A DNA stretch of 64,000 nt from Deferrisoma camini S3R1 (GTDB lineage Bacteria; Desulfobacterota; Deferrisomatia; Deferrisomatales; Deferrisomataceae), in the NCBI RefSeq assembly GCF_000526155.1, contig NZ_JAFN01000001.1:3660264-3724263 (forward strand). The letters are read 5' to 3'. Positions 57,878-63,233 of the stretch are shown here, piece after piece. The notes under the pieces were generated by a model. That model worked only from the letters and a program-made list of their open reading frames with translations. It made no database searches and was not told the origin of the DNA. Positions within the stretch are counted from its first letter, which is position 1. Each line of letters opens with the position of its first letter. A program made the position numbers and the translations under genes.

Positions 57878-58762
57878 ATGCGTACCCAGCCCAAAGCCGC
57901 CCCGTGGGCCGTGGATCTGGCCCTGGTGACGGTGGTCCTCCTGTGGTCCCTGAACTTCGTCATCCTGAAGGCGGCCCTGCCCCGGTTCGACCCCCTGGCC
58001 CTCGCGGCGTTGCGGTTCATGGGGATCGCCGTGCTGTTCGAGATCCTTCTGCGATTCAAAGGGGTCGAGGGGCGCCTGGATCGCGCCGACCGCAAGGCCT
58101 TCGTGGGGTCGGCCCTGGTGGGTTACACCCTGTACCAGGGGCTGTTCATCCTCGGGCTCCATCGGGGCACCGCGTTCTCCACCGCGCTCATGATCAACAC
58201 CGGCCCGATGTGGGCCGCCCTGATCCTGACCCTCTGGGGGCTGGAGAGGGTCGGCCGCCGCCAATGGGCCGGCATCTTCCTGGCCCTGGTGGGGCTCGTG
58301 TTCTACGTCGGCCCCCGCCTCCTCGCCCGGGGAGGTGGCGGGGTCGGGGATCTCCTGGCCTTGGGGGCGGCCGTGTCGTGGTCGTGCTACGGCATCCTCA
58401 ACAAGCCGCTGCTCAAGAGGTACGGGGCGTTCTACCTCACCACCCGCACGTTCCAGATCGGCGCGGCCCTCTTCCTGCCGTTCGCGGTGCCTGCGCTCCT
58501 TGGCCAGGACTGGGCCGGCATCGGCCCGGCCGGCTGGGCGGCCGTGGCCTACTCCGTGGTGTTCCCCATCGTGGTGGCCGTGAGCCTCTGGAACTGGGCC
58601 ATCGGGCAGCGGGGCGTGAGCCGCACCGTGGTGTACCAGTACTTGGTACCCGTGGTGAGCGGTCTGCTCTCCTGGCTCTGCCTGGACGAACCCTTCACCC
58701 CCCAGAAGCTGGCCGGCGGGGCTCTTGTACTGGCGGGTGTGGCCCTGAGCCGAAGGGGTTGA
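57878..58762 (+). CDS. EamA/DMT-superfamily permease
   Basis: A 294-residue inner-membrane protein with ten predicted helices in two EamA repeats (LLWSLNFVILKAALPRFDPL and the second-half WSCYGILNKPLLKRYG). Such proteins export amino acids or metabolites. The ATG at 57878 is chosen because the first helix begins 12 residues later; upstream codons overlap the acsA terminator. The substrate cannot be told. Confidence 0.88.
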   Translation: MRTQPKAAPWAVDLALVTVVLLWSLNFVILKAALPRFDPLALAALRFMGIAVLFEILLRFKGVEGRLDRADRKAFVGSALVGYTLYQGLFILGLHRGTAFSTALMINTGPMWAALILTLWGLERVGRRQWAGIFLALVGLVFYVGPRLLARGGGGVGDLLALGAAVSWSCYGILNKPLLKRYGAFYLTTRTFQIGAALFLPFAVPALLGQDWAGIGPAGWAAVAYSVVFPIVVAVSLWNWAIGQRGVSRTVVYQYLVPVVSGLLSWLCLDEPFTPQKLAGGALVLAGVALSRRG

Positions 58763-58844
58763 CCCGGCCTGCTCCGGCCGGACCACCAACTTGCGCAGCG
58801 CCTCACGCCCCCCCACAGGCCGTTTCCACTGTGCGAGGCTCAGG

Positions 58845-59192
58845 ATGCCGCTGCTGGCGCGCCAGATGTTGGGAAAGATCCGCCGGCTCTGGCTCGTCTG
58901 GCTTCGTCCTCGATACGTGGCCCGGAAACGCCGGGAGCGGACCGGCCGGTGCCTGCGGTGCGGGCGTTGCTGCAGCCTTGCGTTCACCTGCCCGATGTTC
59001 GCCGGGCAAGGACTCTGTTTGACCTACGGTGCGATCCGACCCCGCGTTTGCGCCGCGTTCCCGATCGATGAGCGGGACCTCGCGGAGATCCGCGCGAGCG
59101 GCGGCGCGTGTGGGTCGTATCGCCCTATTTCCTGCCGGACGAGGCCCTGCTCCAGATGCTGGCCGTCCAGACCCGGGCCGGGGTCGAGGTGA
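58845..59192 (+). CDS. YkgJ-like cysteine-cluster protein with altered C-terminus
   Basis: A 115-residue protein. After a basic N-terminus it shows the YkgJ family pattern of CLRCGRCCSLAFTCP, then RPRVCAAFPIDERDL and a further cysteine in GACGS, which together probably hold an iron or zinc centre. Family members usually stop soon after that last cysteine; here the frame runs on for about 20 residues of unrelated sequence (YRPISCRTRPCSRCWPSRPG) that is the out-of-frame start of a phospholipase-D fragment. The 3' end was probably joined to foreign sequence by a deletion or rearrangement near 59100. Confidence 0.65.
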   Translation: MPLLARQMLGKIRRLWLVWLRPRYVARKRRERTGRCLRCGRCCSLAFTCPMFAGQGLCLTYGAIRPRVCAAFPIDERDLAEIRASGGACGSYRPISCRTRPCSRCWPSRPGPGSR

Positions 59193-59554
59193 CGGTCGTC
59201 GTTCCAGAGCGTTCGAACCATCGGCTGGCGGACTGGGCACGGGAACGCCCGTTGCAGATCCTGCGGGACGCGGGAGCCCGGGTCCTGGGATACGGCCGCA
59301 GCATGATCCATGCGAATCTCGTCGCCGTCGACGAGAGCTTCGGTCTTTTCGGATCGGCCAATCTGGACATGCGAAGCCTCTATCTGAATTTCGAGGTCGG
59401 GCTGGCGCTCTACACCCCGGCGGACGTCAGAGCGCTCCGGCGGATTGCCGCCGAATACGCGTCGGCGTCCGGACCCCTGGCGTTTCCTCACCGCAGGGGC
59501 AACGTGGGAGAACTCCTGGTGGACTTGGCGGAACTCTTGGCACCCCTTTTGTGA
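59108..59554 (+). pseudogene. Cardiolipin synthase-like phospholipase D, C-terminal fragment
   Basis: About 148 residues of the second catalytic half of a cardiolipin synthase: VWVVSPYFLPDEALLQML, then MIHANLVAVDE and FGSANLDMRSLYLNFEVGL. The HKD motif is degenerate (HAN instead of HxK). The N-terminal half and membrane helices are missing, and the 5' edge overlaps the end of a YkgJ-like gene in another frame. It is best read as a remnant, although a short protein could still be made from the GTG at 59108. Confidence 0.75.
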
Positions 59555-59572
59555 CGGCGGGAGACGGGAGTC

Positions 59573-61267
59573 GTGTACTCGGTTACCGAACGGATCCTGA
59601 CGCTCCTGGCGGCCCATCCCCATCCGGTGACCTTCTTCCTGCTGGTGCTCACGGGACTGGGGCTTCCCGTGCCGGAGGACGTGATCCTTCTGGCGGCCGG
59701 GGCCGTGGTGAGCTGGGGGCGCACCGGCTACTACCCTATCGTGGGGGCGGCCCTCCTGGGGGTGCTGGTCGGGGATCTCCTGCTCTTCCTCCTGGGGCGG
59801 AGATACGGTCCCAACGTCCTCAAACATCGACCGTTTCGGTACCTGGCGAGCCCACGGCGCATGGACCGGGCGCGGGACATGCTGGCCCGTCGAGGCGCGG
59901 GAGCCGTGTTCCTCGCTCGGTTCGTCGCGGGGGTGCGGTTTGCGGTGTTCTTTGTGGCCGGGGCGAGCGGCATGAACGCGGCCACGTTCGTTCTGCTCGA
60001 CCTCACGGGGGCCGTGCTCTCGGTTCCCCTGGTGGTCCTCGTGGGGTACGTGTTCGGCTCGAACCTGGAGGAGGCCCTGGGCTTCCTCCATGCCCACCGC
60101 TGGCAGGTGCTCGCCGCCGCGGTCGGCTTGGTGCTGGCGGGGTGGGCCCTCGTTCGGGTGGGCCGGGCCCTCGGCCTGTGGAACCGGATCCGGCGGGCCG
60201 GGGCGGCCCTGGCCGGCGGGTACCTGGGACGCCGCCGGTGGTTTCGTTTGGCCCTGCTGGCCGCGGCATTGGGCGGTGTGGTCTACTACGCGGCGGTGGC
60301 CGCCCAACCGCTGCCCGCGGCCGACCGGAACTTCCGGGAGATCGCCCGGATTCCCGCCGTGGGCCCGGGAGAGCCGTTCAGCTTTGCGGTGTTGGGCGAC
60401 AACCGCAACAGCCAGACGGTGTTCACGGAGATTCTCCGGCGCATCGATGCGGATCCCGACATCCGGTTCGCGGTGGACCTGGGAGACCTGGTATTCGACG
60501 GCGAGAGGGAGAAGTACCGGTTCTTCTTGGAGCAGATCGGCGGATTCACGAAGCCCCTCCTGGTGGCGCCGGGAAACCACGACATCCGCGAGGGCGGCCG
60601 CGCCGTGTACTATGACGCGTTTGGCCCATTCTACTACTCGTTCCGGGTGGGCGACGCCCTGTTCGTGGTGCTGGACGACGCCGACGAGGTGGGATTCACG
60701 CCGTCCCAGTGGGCCTGGGCCGAGCGCGTGGTGAAGGAATCGGGCGCCGCGCACACGTTCGTGATGTTTCACGTGCCGCTGTTCGATCCCCGCCACCGCA
60801 CGGACCTCGACTGGCTCAAAGCCGTGCTGCCGGGGCCCGCCCGGAACTGGATGTTCCACCACAGCCTGGCCGACGACGCGAAGGCCCGGGAGTATGCGGC
60901 AGCGTTCCGGCGGTGGGGGGTCACGAGGCTGTACTGCTCCCACGTTCACGGCTTCTACCGGGGAGAGTGGGCCGGCGTGCCGTTCACCCTGACGGGGGGT
61001 GCCGGCGCCCCGCTGGTCGGGGTCGACCCCGAGCACGATTTCTACCATTACGTGAAGGTCACGGTGGGACCCGGGGGCGTGCGCGAGGAGGTGGTTCGGA
61101 TTCCTTCGCCCTCGTTCGGGCTTCTGGCCCGCGCCGGAAACCTGGTTTTTCTGCATCTGAGAAGCTTCGTGGCCACCCACGTCCCGGGTACGGTTCTGTT
61201 CCTCGTGTTCGCGGTGGGCGCGTGGGACCTCCTGGCTGCCCGGCGCGGTCGGGAGAACGCAGCGTGA
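59573..61267 (+). CDS. DedA membrane protein fused to a metallophosphoesterase
   Basis: A 564-residue fusion. Residues about 1-190 form a DedA/SNARE-associated domain (GLPVPEDVILLAAG, GDLLLFLLGRRYG, FLARFVAGVRFAVFFVAGASG). A further membrane helix (about 225-242) leads to a calcineurin-like phosphoesterase with metal ligands D276 (GDNRNS), D305 (LGDLV), N335-H336 (GNHD), H400 (MFHVP), H457 and H459 (SHVHG). A last helix (VPGTVLFLVFAVGAW) ends the protein. Some DedA proteins flip undecaprenyl phosphate; a phosphoesterase on the same chain suggests coupled lipid-phosphate processing. The GTG start follows CGGGAG. Its stop overlaps the PAP2 start by one base. Confidence 0.9.
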   Translation: MYSVTERILTLLAAHPHPVTFFLLVLTGLGLPVPEDVILLAAGAVVSWGRTGYYPIVGAALLGVLVGDLLLFLLGRRYGPNVLKHRPFRYLASPRRMDRARDMLARRGAGAVFLARFVAGVRFAVFFVAGASGMNAATFVLLDLTGAVLSVPLVVLVGYVFGSNLEEALGFLHAHRWQVLAAAVGLVLAGWALVRVGRALGLWNRIRRAGAALAGGYLGRRRWFRLALLAAALGGVVYYAAVAAQPLPAADRNFREIARIPAVGPGEPFSFAVLGDNRNSQTVFTEILRRIDADPDIRFAVDLGDLVFDGEREKYRFFLEQIGGFTKPLLVAPGNHDIREGGRAVYYDAFGPFYYSFRVGDALFVVLDDADEVGFTPSQWAWAERVVKESGAAHTFVMFHVPLFDPRHRTDLDWLKAVLPGPARNWMFHHSLADDAKAREYAAAFRRWGVTRLYCSHVHGFYRGEWAGVPFTLTGGAGAPLVGVDPEHDFYHYVKVTVGPGGVREEVVRIPSPSFGLLARAGNLVFLHLRSFVATHVPGTVLFLVFAVGAWDLLAARRGRENAA

Positions 61268-62052
61268 TGCGGGTCTCCCTCCTGGCCGTGGCCCTCGCCC
61301 TCATCATGGTGTCGGCGAGCTCGGCCTCTGCCGGGGTGGGCCGAGACCCGGTCCGGGCTGGTCGGGACGCCCTCGCGTACGCCGTGACCCCGGCCGGCTG
61401 GGGTGCCGAGGAATGGGGCCGGTTCGGGCTCGCCGCGGGGGCGGTGGCGGCCGTGGGGGTGGCCGACGAGGGCGTCCGGGTCTCCGTACGAGACGTCCGC
61501 ACCGGGTTCACGGGGGATCTCGCCCGGGCGGTGAAGGGGCTCGGCGAGCCCCTGGGCTGGGGCGGGGCTGTGGTCGCGGCCACGTACCTGGGGGGCTGGG
61601 CGGCCGGAGCCGACGACGTGCGGGAGACCGGGTTTCGCATGGCCGAGGCCGGCGTGCTTTCGCTGGCGGCGGCATCGGTGCTCAAGGTCGCCGCAGGCCG
61701 AAGCCGGCCCGGGGAGGGGCAGGGCGCCGGCACGTTTCGGCCGCTCCGGGGCGGTCTGGGCGGCGGGCGCTCGTCGTTCCCCTCAGGCCACACCACGTTC
61801 GCCTTCGCCGTGGCCGCGGTGGCGGCCGAACGGGTGCCGGGTTCGGGCTGGGTGGCCTATCCGCTCGCGGCGCTCGTGGGCTGGTCGCGCCTCCACGACG
61901 ACGACCACTGGGCGAGCGATGTCGCGGCGGGGGCCGCCCTGGGCGCGGCCACCGGCTGGTGGGCGGCGCACCGCCCGGATGAGTCCGCCGCCCGGCTGGT
62001 GCCCTGGGTCGGCCCGGGCGGGGGAGGCCTGGCATGGGCCGGAGAGTTCTGA
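61267..62052 (+). CDS. PAP2-family phosphatase
   Basis: A 261-residue protein with a signal peptide or first helix (ending SSASA) and the complete three-part PAP2 catalytic signature: K140-x6-RP (KVAAGRSRP), P172-SGH, and S207-R-x5-H214-x3-D218. Members dephosphorylate lipid pyrophosphates such as undecaprenyl pyrophosphate, or phosphatidic acid. The ATG overlaps the stop of the DedA fusion by one base, so translation is coupled, and it overlaps the next gene by 19 bases. Confidence 0.9.
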   Translation: MRVSLLAVALALIMVSASSASAGVGRDPVRAGRDALAYAVTPAGWGAEEWGRFGLAAGAVAAVGVADEGVRVSVRDVRTGFTGDLARAVKGLGEPLGWGGAVVAATYLGGWAAGADDVRETGFRMAEAGVLSLAAASVLKVAAGRSRPGEGQGAGTFRPLRGGLGGGRSSFPSGHTTFAFAVAAVAAERVPGSGWVAYPLAALVGWSRLHDDDHWASDVAAGAALGAATGWWAAHRPDESAARLVPWVGPGGGGLAWAGEF

Positions 62053-63233
62053 GCCGGCCGCGCCTTCCCGGCACGGTCCGGGCGCTCGGGTGGGTGAGCC
62101 TGCTCACCGATCTGTCGAGCGAGATGATCTATCCCCTGCTCCCGGCGTTTCTCACGGGCGTCCTGGGGGCGGGGGCCGGAGCCTTGGGGGTGATCGAGGG
62201 GGTGGCCGAGGCCACGGCGTCGGTGCTCAAGTGGGTGTCGGGCCGGTGGTCCGACCGGATGGAGCGCCGGAAGCCGTTGGTGCTGGTGGGGTATACGGTG
62301 TCCGGGATGAGCCGCCCCCTGATCGGGGCGGCCTCCTCGTGGCTCGGGGTGCTGGGACTGCGGTTCTCGGATCGGGTGGGCAAGGGGCTTCGCACGTCCC
62401 CGCGCGACGCCTTGATCGCCGAGGCCGTGGCGCCCGAACAGCGCGGCCGGGCGTTCGGATTCCACCGGGCCATGGACCACGCGGGTGCCGTGGTGGGGCC
62501 CCTGGTGGCCGCGGCCCTGCTGGGCTGGGGCGTGCCGCTCCGCGTCGTGTTTGGGCTGGCCGCGCTGCCCGCAGCGGCGGTGGTCGTTGTGATCGCGCGA
62601 GGAGTTGCGGAGTCTCCCCGTTCTGCTCCGCAACCCGATCCGTCCCTGGCCGCGGCCCCAAAGCCGGGGGGATTCGGCCCCGGCTTCGGACGGTTTCTGC
62701 TGGCCCTGGCGGTGTTCACCCTGGGCAACTCTACCGACGCGTTTCTCCTGTTCCGGATGTCCGAGCTGGGGGCCCCGGCTGCCAGCGTGGCCGTGTTGTG
62801 GGCGGCCCACCACGGGGTGAAAACCGCGGCAACCCTCTGGGGGGGCCGGATCGTGGACCGGCTAGGCCCGCGACGGTGCCTCACAGCCGGGTGGTTGTGG
62901 TACGCCGTGGTCTACCTCGGCTTCGCCCTGGCGCGGGGGCCGGGCGCGGGCGTGGTGTGGTTCCTGGCTTACGGCCTCTATCACGGGTTGGCCGAGCCCG
63001 CCGAAAGGGCATGGACCGCCGCCCTGGCCCCCCGGGGCGTCCGGGGCGCCGCCTACGGGTGGGTTCACGGGGCGATGGGGCTCGCCGCCCTGCCTGCGAG
63101 CCTTCTTTTCGGGGGCCTCTGGGAGGCCTGGGGGGCTCCGGTGGCCTTCGGTGTCGGGGCGGCGCTGGCAGTGGGCGCGGCGGCGCTGCTGGCGGGCGTA
63201 CCGAGCCGTCCCGTCGGCGGCGCGAACGCCTGA
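62034..63233 (+). CDS. Major facilitator superfamily permease
   Basis: A 399-residue inner-membrane protein with about twelve helices. The loop segment DRVGKGLRTSPRDALI between helices and SDRMERRKP after helix 2 are typical of MFS efflux-type proteins. The N-terminus (LTDLSSEMIYPLLPAFL) is that of a widespread MFS group of unknown substrate. It starts inside the PAP2 gene, suggesting one operon with the DedA fusion. Confidence 0.88.
   Translation: MGRRVLSRPRLPGTVRALGWVSLLTDLSSEMIYPLLPAFLTGVLGAGAGALGVIEGVAEATASVLKWVSGRWSDRMERRKPLVLVGYTVSGMSRPLIGAASSWLGVLGLRFSDRVGKGLRTSPRDALIAEAVAPEQRGRAFGFHRAMDHAGAVVGPLVAAALLGWGVPLRVVFGLAALPAAAVVVVIARGVAESPRSAPQPDPSLAAAPKPGGFGPGFGRFLLALAVFTLGNSTDAFLLFRMSELGAPAASVAVLWAAHHGVKTAATLWGGRIVDRLGPRRCLTAGWLWYAVVYLGFALARGPGAGVVWFLAYGLYHGLAEPAERAWTAALAPRGVRGAAYGWVHGAMGLAALPASLLFGGLWEAWGAPVAFGVGAALAVGAAALLAGVPSRPVGGANA

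Follow-up and report, generated by a model that had tools for sequence, protein, structure and literature searches.

How lipid carriers and phospholipids are returned across the inner membrane, and what assigns each DedA protein its lipid, are open questions. Fusions of DedA with PAP2 and with rhodanese have been reported (PMC10127716), as have the analogous fusions DUF368-PAP2 and DUF368-BacA (PMC9876793). Here we analyze a gene in a stretch of 64,000 nucleotides from Deferrisoma camini S3R1 (contig NZ_JAFN01000001.1, positions 3,660,264 to 3,724,263; hereafter, the window), in which a DedA domain is joined to a metallophosphoesterase (MPE). No description of a fusion between DedA (or a SNARE-associated protein) and a metallophosphoesterase was found in the literature searched, from which subscription papers and InterPro were excluded, and the architecture is apparently undescribed so far.

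Several known systems resemble this gene in part. The DedA-PAP2 and DedA-rhodanese proteins (COG0586; P. aeruginosa PA4011 and PA1209) likewise combine an N-terminal DedA with a C-terminal domain and include a phosphatase as the partner (PMC10127716, PMC12893004); unlike them, the window protein has as its partner an MPE with two membrane helices of its own, and the PAP2 is encoded by a separate gene. UptA shares the VTT domain and, judging by alignment, the arginine pair needed for binding of undecaprenyl phosphate (C55-P), which is R116/R122 here (PMC11474028). Unlike UptA, the window fusion scores 52 bits against the UptA equivalog model (NF052604), below the curated cut-off of 250, and a more UptA-like DedA is encoded elsewhere in the genome. 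The DUF368 (PopT) fusions with PAP2 or BacA also join a lipid-carrier transporter to a lipid phosphatase (PMC9876793), whereas the transporter family is unrelated and no DUF368 was found in the window genome. It should be noted that a preliminary description of this DNA had counted PopT among the DedA proteins, although PopT belongs to DUF368 (PMC9876793, PMC12893004). In PlcP-Agt operons a phospholipid-cleaving enzyme stands beside a diacylglycerol glycosyltransferase (PMC4796936, PMC8528852); unlike that enzyme, the window esterase is predicted to be extracytoplasmic, resembles purple acid phosphatases and GpdQ, is tied to DedA and has no Pho box. Finally, models suggest that the window esterase shares its fold (Z 22-23 across 217-240 residues) and six metal ligands with GpdQ and the purple acid phosphatases. 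It is only 15-20% identical to them, its DxH histidine is replaced by K/R, and it is membrane-anchored at both ends.

The fusion is a maintained gene

The fusion and the PAP2 gene coupled to it have the following features.

59573..61267, forward strand: DedA-metallophosphoesterase fusion gene, 564 amino acids (aa), GTG start, TGA stop, uninterrupted open reading frame (ORF)
59669..60049, forward strand: DedA/VTT domain, residues 33-159 (PF09335; Pfam 64 bits, cut-off 33.9)
60236..60304, forward strand: membrane helix ahead of the esterase, residues 222-244 (AlphaFold2 helix; hydropathy of the sibling protein)
60374..61108, forward strand: calcineurin/purple-acid-phosphatase-type MPE, residues ~268-512 (Pfam, AlphaFold2, fold match, conservation)
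61181..61261, forward strand: C-terminal membrane helix, residues 537-563, with an arginine-rich tail predicted to be cytoplasmic (AlphaFold2; tail charge)
61267..62052, forward strand: PAP2 phosphatase, 261 aa, signal-like N terminus (PF01569, 70.5 bits, cut-off 27.2; motifs)

Both domains of the fusion exceed their Pfam cut-offs, with Metallophos (PF00149) at residues 270-459 scoring 32.2 bits (cut-off 21.5). The same fusion is found in the sibling genome G200 (L058/L032; 567 aa, 94% identity), and differences in third codon positions predominate between the two copies in all segments, linker included. For example, the MPE segment has 35 third-position differences versus 14 in first and second positions. 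Because G200 shares the fusion at 94% identity with mainly third-position changes, the DedA-MPE fusion is a maintained gene and no artefact, and a frame error or a chimeric ORF is ruled out on the same grounds. The joining of the two domains on one chain, as claimed in the preliminary description, is thus confirmed, and so is the claim that the coupled next gene encodes a PAP2 with its catalytic motif residues: the PAP2 start overlaps the fusion stop codon (TGATG), and K..RP, PSGH and SR..H...D can be read from the sequence. The possibility that the fusion is common across the phylum was ruled out, given that it was present in the genus only among 395 genomes scanned.

A second, independent fusion

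Another DedA-MPE fusion of 539 aa (VTT at residues 34-155, Metallophos at 252-428) is encoded at locus L085, where the gene order is PAP2 > DedA-MPE > DedA > GT4. In the esterase tree, L085 groups with the unfused L073, L077, L086 and L093, away from the clade of the window, and the AU test rejects a clade uniting both fusions, and with it a single origin (p-AU 1.2e-7; 8.7e-6 with L059). The DedA parts of the window and L085 proteins are 18% identical. By the tree and these sequence comparisons, the DedA-MPE fusion arose twice. That linked genes have been fused twice independently is classical evidence that they are functionally coupled. A DedA twice covalently joined to what is predicted to be an outer-face enzyme provides a handle on the assignment of lipids, as the esterase substrate would name the lipid of the DedA.

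The esterase family and its predicted location

A scan of named genomes yielded 79 loci of the MPE family in many phyla, including Nitrospirota, Aquificota, Campylobacterota, Cloacimonadota and the ANME-1 archaea, and the gene is conserved in ANME-1/Methanophagales (L068, L072, L074, L078, L079). Nearly all members are stand-alone proteins of 260-400 aa. Those unfused homologues whose complete sequences were read carry an N-terminal signal peptide or signal anchor, and many have a C-terminal helix, while some are without this helix and appear secreted. The GGAGA and FYHY blocks are marks of the family. The metal ligands are D276, D305, N335, H400, H457 and H459, each of them kept in at least 48 of 50 homologues, and the histidine of the first motif, DxH, is replaced by K/R (position 278) in 47 of the 50. 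The ligand tyrosine of purple acid phosphatases, three residues past the GD aspartate, is absent from the window protein, which has F308, and the position is occupied by F, Y, P, Q or other residues in the family. The MPE belongs to an apparently uncharacterised subfamily, distinguished by K/R where the DxH motif has its histidine.

The DedA and esterase domains were modelled from separate alignments. The esterase part of the AlphaFold2 model has pLDDT mostly >90 and matches GpdQ with Z 23.1, and Rv0805 and purple acid phosphatases about equally well (Z ~22). Confidence for DedA was low in the whole-chain model (mostly 50-75), and the DedA-only model was better (83). The arginine-rich stretch of residues 190-224, before the helix at 222-244, contains 8 K/R and 0 D/E and is predicted to lie on the cytoplasmic side, and the C terminus is positive as well. 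Because positive-inside charges flank the helices and the unfused homologues are signal-anchored, the esterase is predicted to lie outside the cytoplasmic membrane, and a cytoplasmic esterase is disfavoured by the same two observations. A placement of the two domains on incompatible sides, named in the preliminary description as the topology that would speak against a shared substrate, was not seen in these predictions, in which the esterase is periplasmic.

PAP2 and DedA as neighbours across phyla

Among 133 immediate neighbours of MPE genes, distributed over 110 Pfam families, PAP2 ranked first (13) and VTT second (10), with no prior choice of families; at genome density, 0.2 PAP2/DedA genes would be expected among the 133 (based on 5 such genes in the window genome and an estimated ~3,800 genes). 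With purpose-built profiles, PAP2 or DedA occupied 24 of 144 positions at +-1, whereas at +-4 to 6 they occupied 10 of 228 (Fisher p = 8e-5); the MPE loci are related, so that neighbour counts are not phylogenetically independent, and the figures overstate independence. The arrangements vary by clade. PAP2 follows the esterase in L064, L092, L095 and L097 and precedes it in L073, L085, L086, L098 and L115; DedA follows it in L117, L120 and L130; and in L099, L101 and L107, DedA flanks the esterase on both sides or a DedA-PAP2 fusion adjoins it. Genes for DedA-PAP2(-LssY_C) fusions adjoin the MPE in L101 and L115.

Other genes for lipid enzymes recur at these loci. One GT4 family is found within 1-4 genes of the MPE in L070, L071, L073, L077, L082, L085, L091 and L098, and alpha-monoglucosyldiacylglycerol synthase was the first or second best model for five of the six cassette GT4 proteins tested, with scores below the cut-off. 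In three genomes a catalytically degenerate relative of this MPE is fused to a GT4 (L147:3990-6344, L148:2950-5163, L149:1889-4093), and the GT4 of the L147 fusion, the only one on which the model was run, is nearest to monoglucosyl-diacylglycerol synthase. A DedA-PAP2 ORF was also observed ~1.1 kb upstream of the fusion in L148. The gene for cardiolipin synthase (cls) lies downstream of the ANME-1 MPE in L068, L078 and L079 (in L079, 583 bits versus a cut-off of 290).

Taken as a whole, these neighbours point to a cassette for lipid processing that is carried by anaerobes, vent bacteria and methane-oxidising archaea and is not described in the papers searched. The MPE probably belongs to a little-known gene set for processing and recycling of envelope lipids. 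A more specific proposal, which we hold tentatively and consider somewhat less probable than its negation, is that of a horizontally spread, undescribed envelope cassette, built around a new subfamily of doubly anchored, extracytoplasmic MPEs and further made up of DedA, PAP2, MFS, a GT4 of the diacylglycerol type and, in some cases, cls. It would link hydrolysis of lipid phosphate in the outer leaflet to return of the lipid, would extend over many bacterial phyla and ANME-1 and, with the same tentativeness, would have been condensed at least two times into a DedA-esterase fusion.

Proposed mechanism and competing explanations

We propose, with a probability of roughly 0.5, that hydrolysis of lipid phosphate at the outer face is coupled to DedA-mediated return of the lipid. 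An extracytoplasmic two-metal phosphoesterase with a helix on each side would be tied to a DedA lipid transporter and would hydrolyse the phosphate (or the attached head group) of a membrane lipid at the outer leaflet; the partner PAP2 would strip lipid phosphate on the same side, and the DedA part would carry the product lipid back to the inner leaflet for reuse. The fusion itself, the intact esterase and PAP2 motifs, the arginine pair, the predicted topology, the recurrent neighbourhood and the second fusion are shown by sequences and models and favour this proposal; we infer catalytic activity of any kind, which lipid is acted on, which way it is carried and that hydrolysis and transport are coupled. 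Several observations weigh against it, in addition to the relatedness of the loci. The two fused DedA parts differ, that of L085 being UptA-like (112 bits, also below the cut-off of 250) and that of the window divergent. DedA or PAP2 occurs within two genes in 23 of 75 MPE loci, and two-thirds have neither; many of the loci are metagenome bins. Within the genus, the PAP2 adjoins the esterase in only two of three genomes, and the existence, in related bacteria, of degenerate MPEs in fusion with GT4 shows that the domain can persist without catalysis.

With regard to the lipid, a glycerophospholipid-derived product (diacylglycerol made from phospholipid, which would supply glycolipid synthesis at loci with a GT4) is ranked slightly ahead of undecaprenyl (pyro)phosphate, and either assignment is unlikely when taken alone. 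The former would be analogous to PlcP-Agt, only outside the membrane: a phospholipase C-like esterase, a PAP2 acting on phosphatidate, a DedA returning diacylglycerol or lipid, and a GT4 that glycosylates it. The precedent of PlcP-glycosyltransferase operons is established (PMC4796936, PMC8528852), the fold is nearest to the glycerophosphodiesterase GpdQ, and cls stands directly upstream in the clade of the window as well as near the MPE in ANME-1; the GT4 family of the eight loci and the MPE-GT4 fusions of three genomes point the same way. However, no GT4 of that family was found at the window or sibling locus, the GT4 scores are under the cut-off, the MPE-GT4 fusions have lost catalytic residues, and Pho boxes were not enriched before MPE operons (3 sites versus ~1 expected, none in the window). 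The less probable alternative is that the esterase and/or PAP2 make C55-P from C55-PP outside and that the fused DedA flips C55-P back. Consistent with this, the best model for the PAP2 neighbours in G200, L085, L115 and L064 is that of the YbjG-type undecaprenyl-diphosphate phosphatase (90-112 bits), UptA is the best match of the fused DedA of L085, and R116 and R122 align with the R112/R118 pair in the second re-entrant region of UptA (PMC11474028), a pair also kept in L085. In addition, in the sister genus (G151) a PAP2 of the window type (53%) has an ArnT-like transferase on one side and a UptA-like DedA on the other, the window genome is without DUF368, and fusions of DedA with PAP2 and of DUF368 with BacA or PAP2 are already known (PMC9876793, PMC10127716). 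Conversely, every NCBIfam score is under its curated cut-off (the window PAP2 has 22.2 bits versus 229 for NF008813, the YbjG-type model), and NCBIfam holds few DedA models, so that UptA as the best hit discriminates little. PAP2 would make another pyrophosphatase fold redundant, the neighbouring cls and diacylglycerol-type GT4 genes would be left unexplained, BacA is present in both fusion-bearing genomes, and the window genome (G000) holds the separate, more UptA-like DedA (119 bits), beside an ArnT-like transferase. The module as the sole undecaprenyl pyrophosphatase is rejected for the window genome, given the presence of BacA.

The preliminary description had proposed a self-contained module for recycling of a lipid carrier. 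The recurrence of PAP2 and DedA as the commonest neighbours and the twofold origin of the fusion favour its general outline, whereas undecaprenyl phosphate is not assigned by the scores of 52 and 22 bits, and the cls and monoglucosyl-diacylglycerol-synthase-like GT4 neighbours point as much to glycerophospholipids; as the sole means of recycling, the module is contradicted by BacA and the separate UptA-like DedA. Two explanations dispense with a lipid shared between the domains or with catalysis. DedA could be a mere anchor for a periplasmic esterase that scavenges phosphate from soluble nucleotides or glycerophosphodiesters; the best fold matches are indeed enzymes of soluble phosphodiesters and monoesters, and the homologues without a C-terminal helix look secreted. 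We regard this as unlikely, slightly more so than the undecaprenyl assignment, in view of the recurrent DedA and PAP2 neighbours, the independent fusion to a different DedA, the two membrane anchors retained in many homologues and the missing Pho-box signal. More improbable still is a non-catalytic role of the esterase part, as a domain that controls DedA by binding lipid or by regulation: the replacement of the DxH histidine and the persistence of degenerate relatives fused to GT4 would fit, whereas nearly all members, that of the window included, keep the other six metal ligands.

Flanking genes, the sibling operon and a deletion

The remaining features around the fusion are as follows.

58791..59192, forward strand: Cys-rich ORF (CLRCGRCC), joined at its 3' end, out of frame, to the cls remnant; left edge of the deletion
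59108..59554, forward strand: cls remnant, C-terminal third with the second PLD motif (PF13091, 68 bits), directly upstream of the fusion
62034..63233, forward strand: MFS permease, 399 aa (PF07690, 118.7 bits)

The cls remnant, which is missing from the gene list of the preliminary description, covers only positions 334-483 of the bac_cardiolipin profile. The cls of the sibling is intact (462 aa, L032 6818-8206), and a second full-length cls (40% identity) is found elsewhere in the window genome, a single contig of 4.24 Mb. At the G200 locus, genes for a response regulator and a histidine kinase come first, followed by a small membrane ORF, the Cys-rich ORF, PAP2, cls, DedA-MPE and PAP2 (the response regulator, histidine kinase and Cys-rich labels were judged from translations), and the first PAP2 of this operon is YbjG-like (226 aa). 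In blastn comparisons, window 58790-59115 corresponds to L032 5780-6106 and window 59090-62037 to L032 7743-10698; compared to G200, the window genome lacks ~1.64 kb, which held the first PAP2 as well as the 5' two-thirds of the cls gene. The response regulator/histidine kinase region is also missing from the window genome, and the MFS gene is extra (junction area 58725-59115). By this alignment, PAP2-cls-[DedA-MPE]-PAP2 is the intact operon form, found in the sibling, and the window form is derived from it by deletion. In G176, the third genome of the genus, the contig begins inside the linker, which leaves the fusion confirmed in the other two; selD comes after the esterase, and a different contig carries the PAP2 orthologue.

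The MFS permease had been presented as an operon member in the preliminary description; it was not found behind PAP2 in G200, so that the link does not extend to the nearest sibling. Its status as a core part is doubtful, although related MFS genes (43-60% identity) recur near the MPE in L062, L077, L101 and L113.

Upstream of the intact sibling operon there is a Pho-box-like triple repeat (L032:5667-5695, TTGTAAT-GTTC-CTGTCAT-GGTC-CCGTAAC), which is missing from the window and is matched as well by 8 of 200 shuffles. Pho regulation was considered and rejected, as there is no enrichment, with only this Pho-box-like repeat in the sibling.

UptA-like DedA genes directly follow ArnT-like transferases in L056:1366-3332 and L145:6670-9791; in the sister genus, a PAP2 lies between the two. 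Such an arrangement of an ArnT-like transferase with a UptA-like DedA (and PAP2) may represent a natural operon for release and return of undecaprenyl phosphate. A fragment ~10 kb downstream of the window operon (L146:8470-8724; G000:C1:3732436-3732735), with a 144-aa open frame and ~48-54% identity to the window-type PAP2, is perhaps a decayed second copy of that gene.

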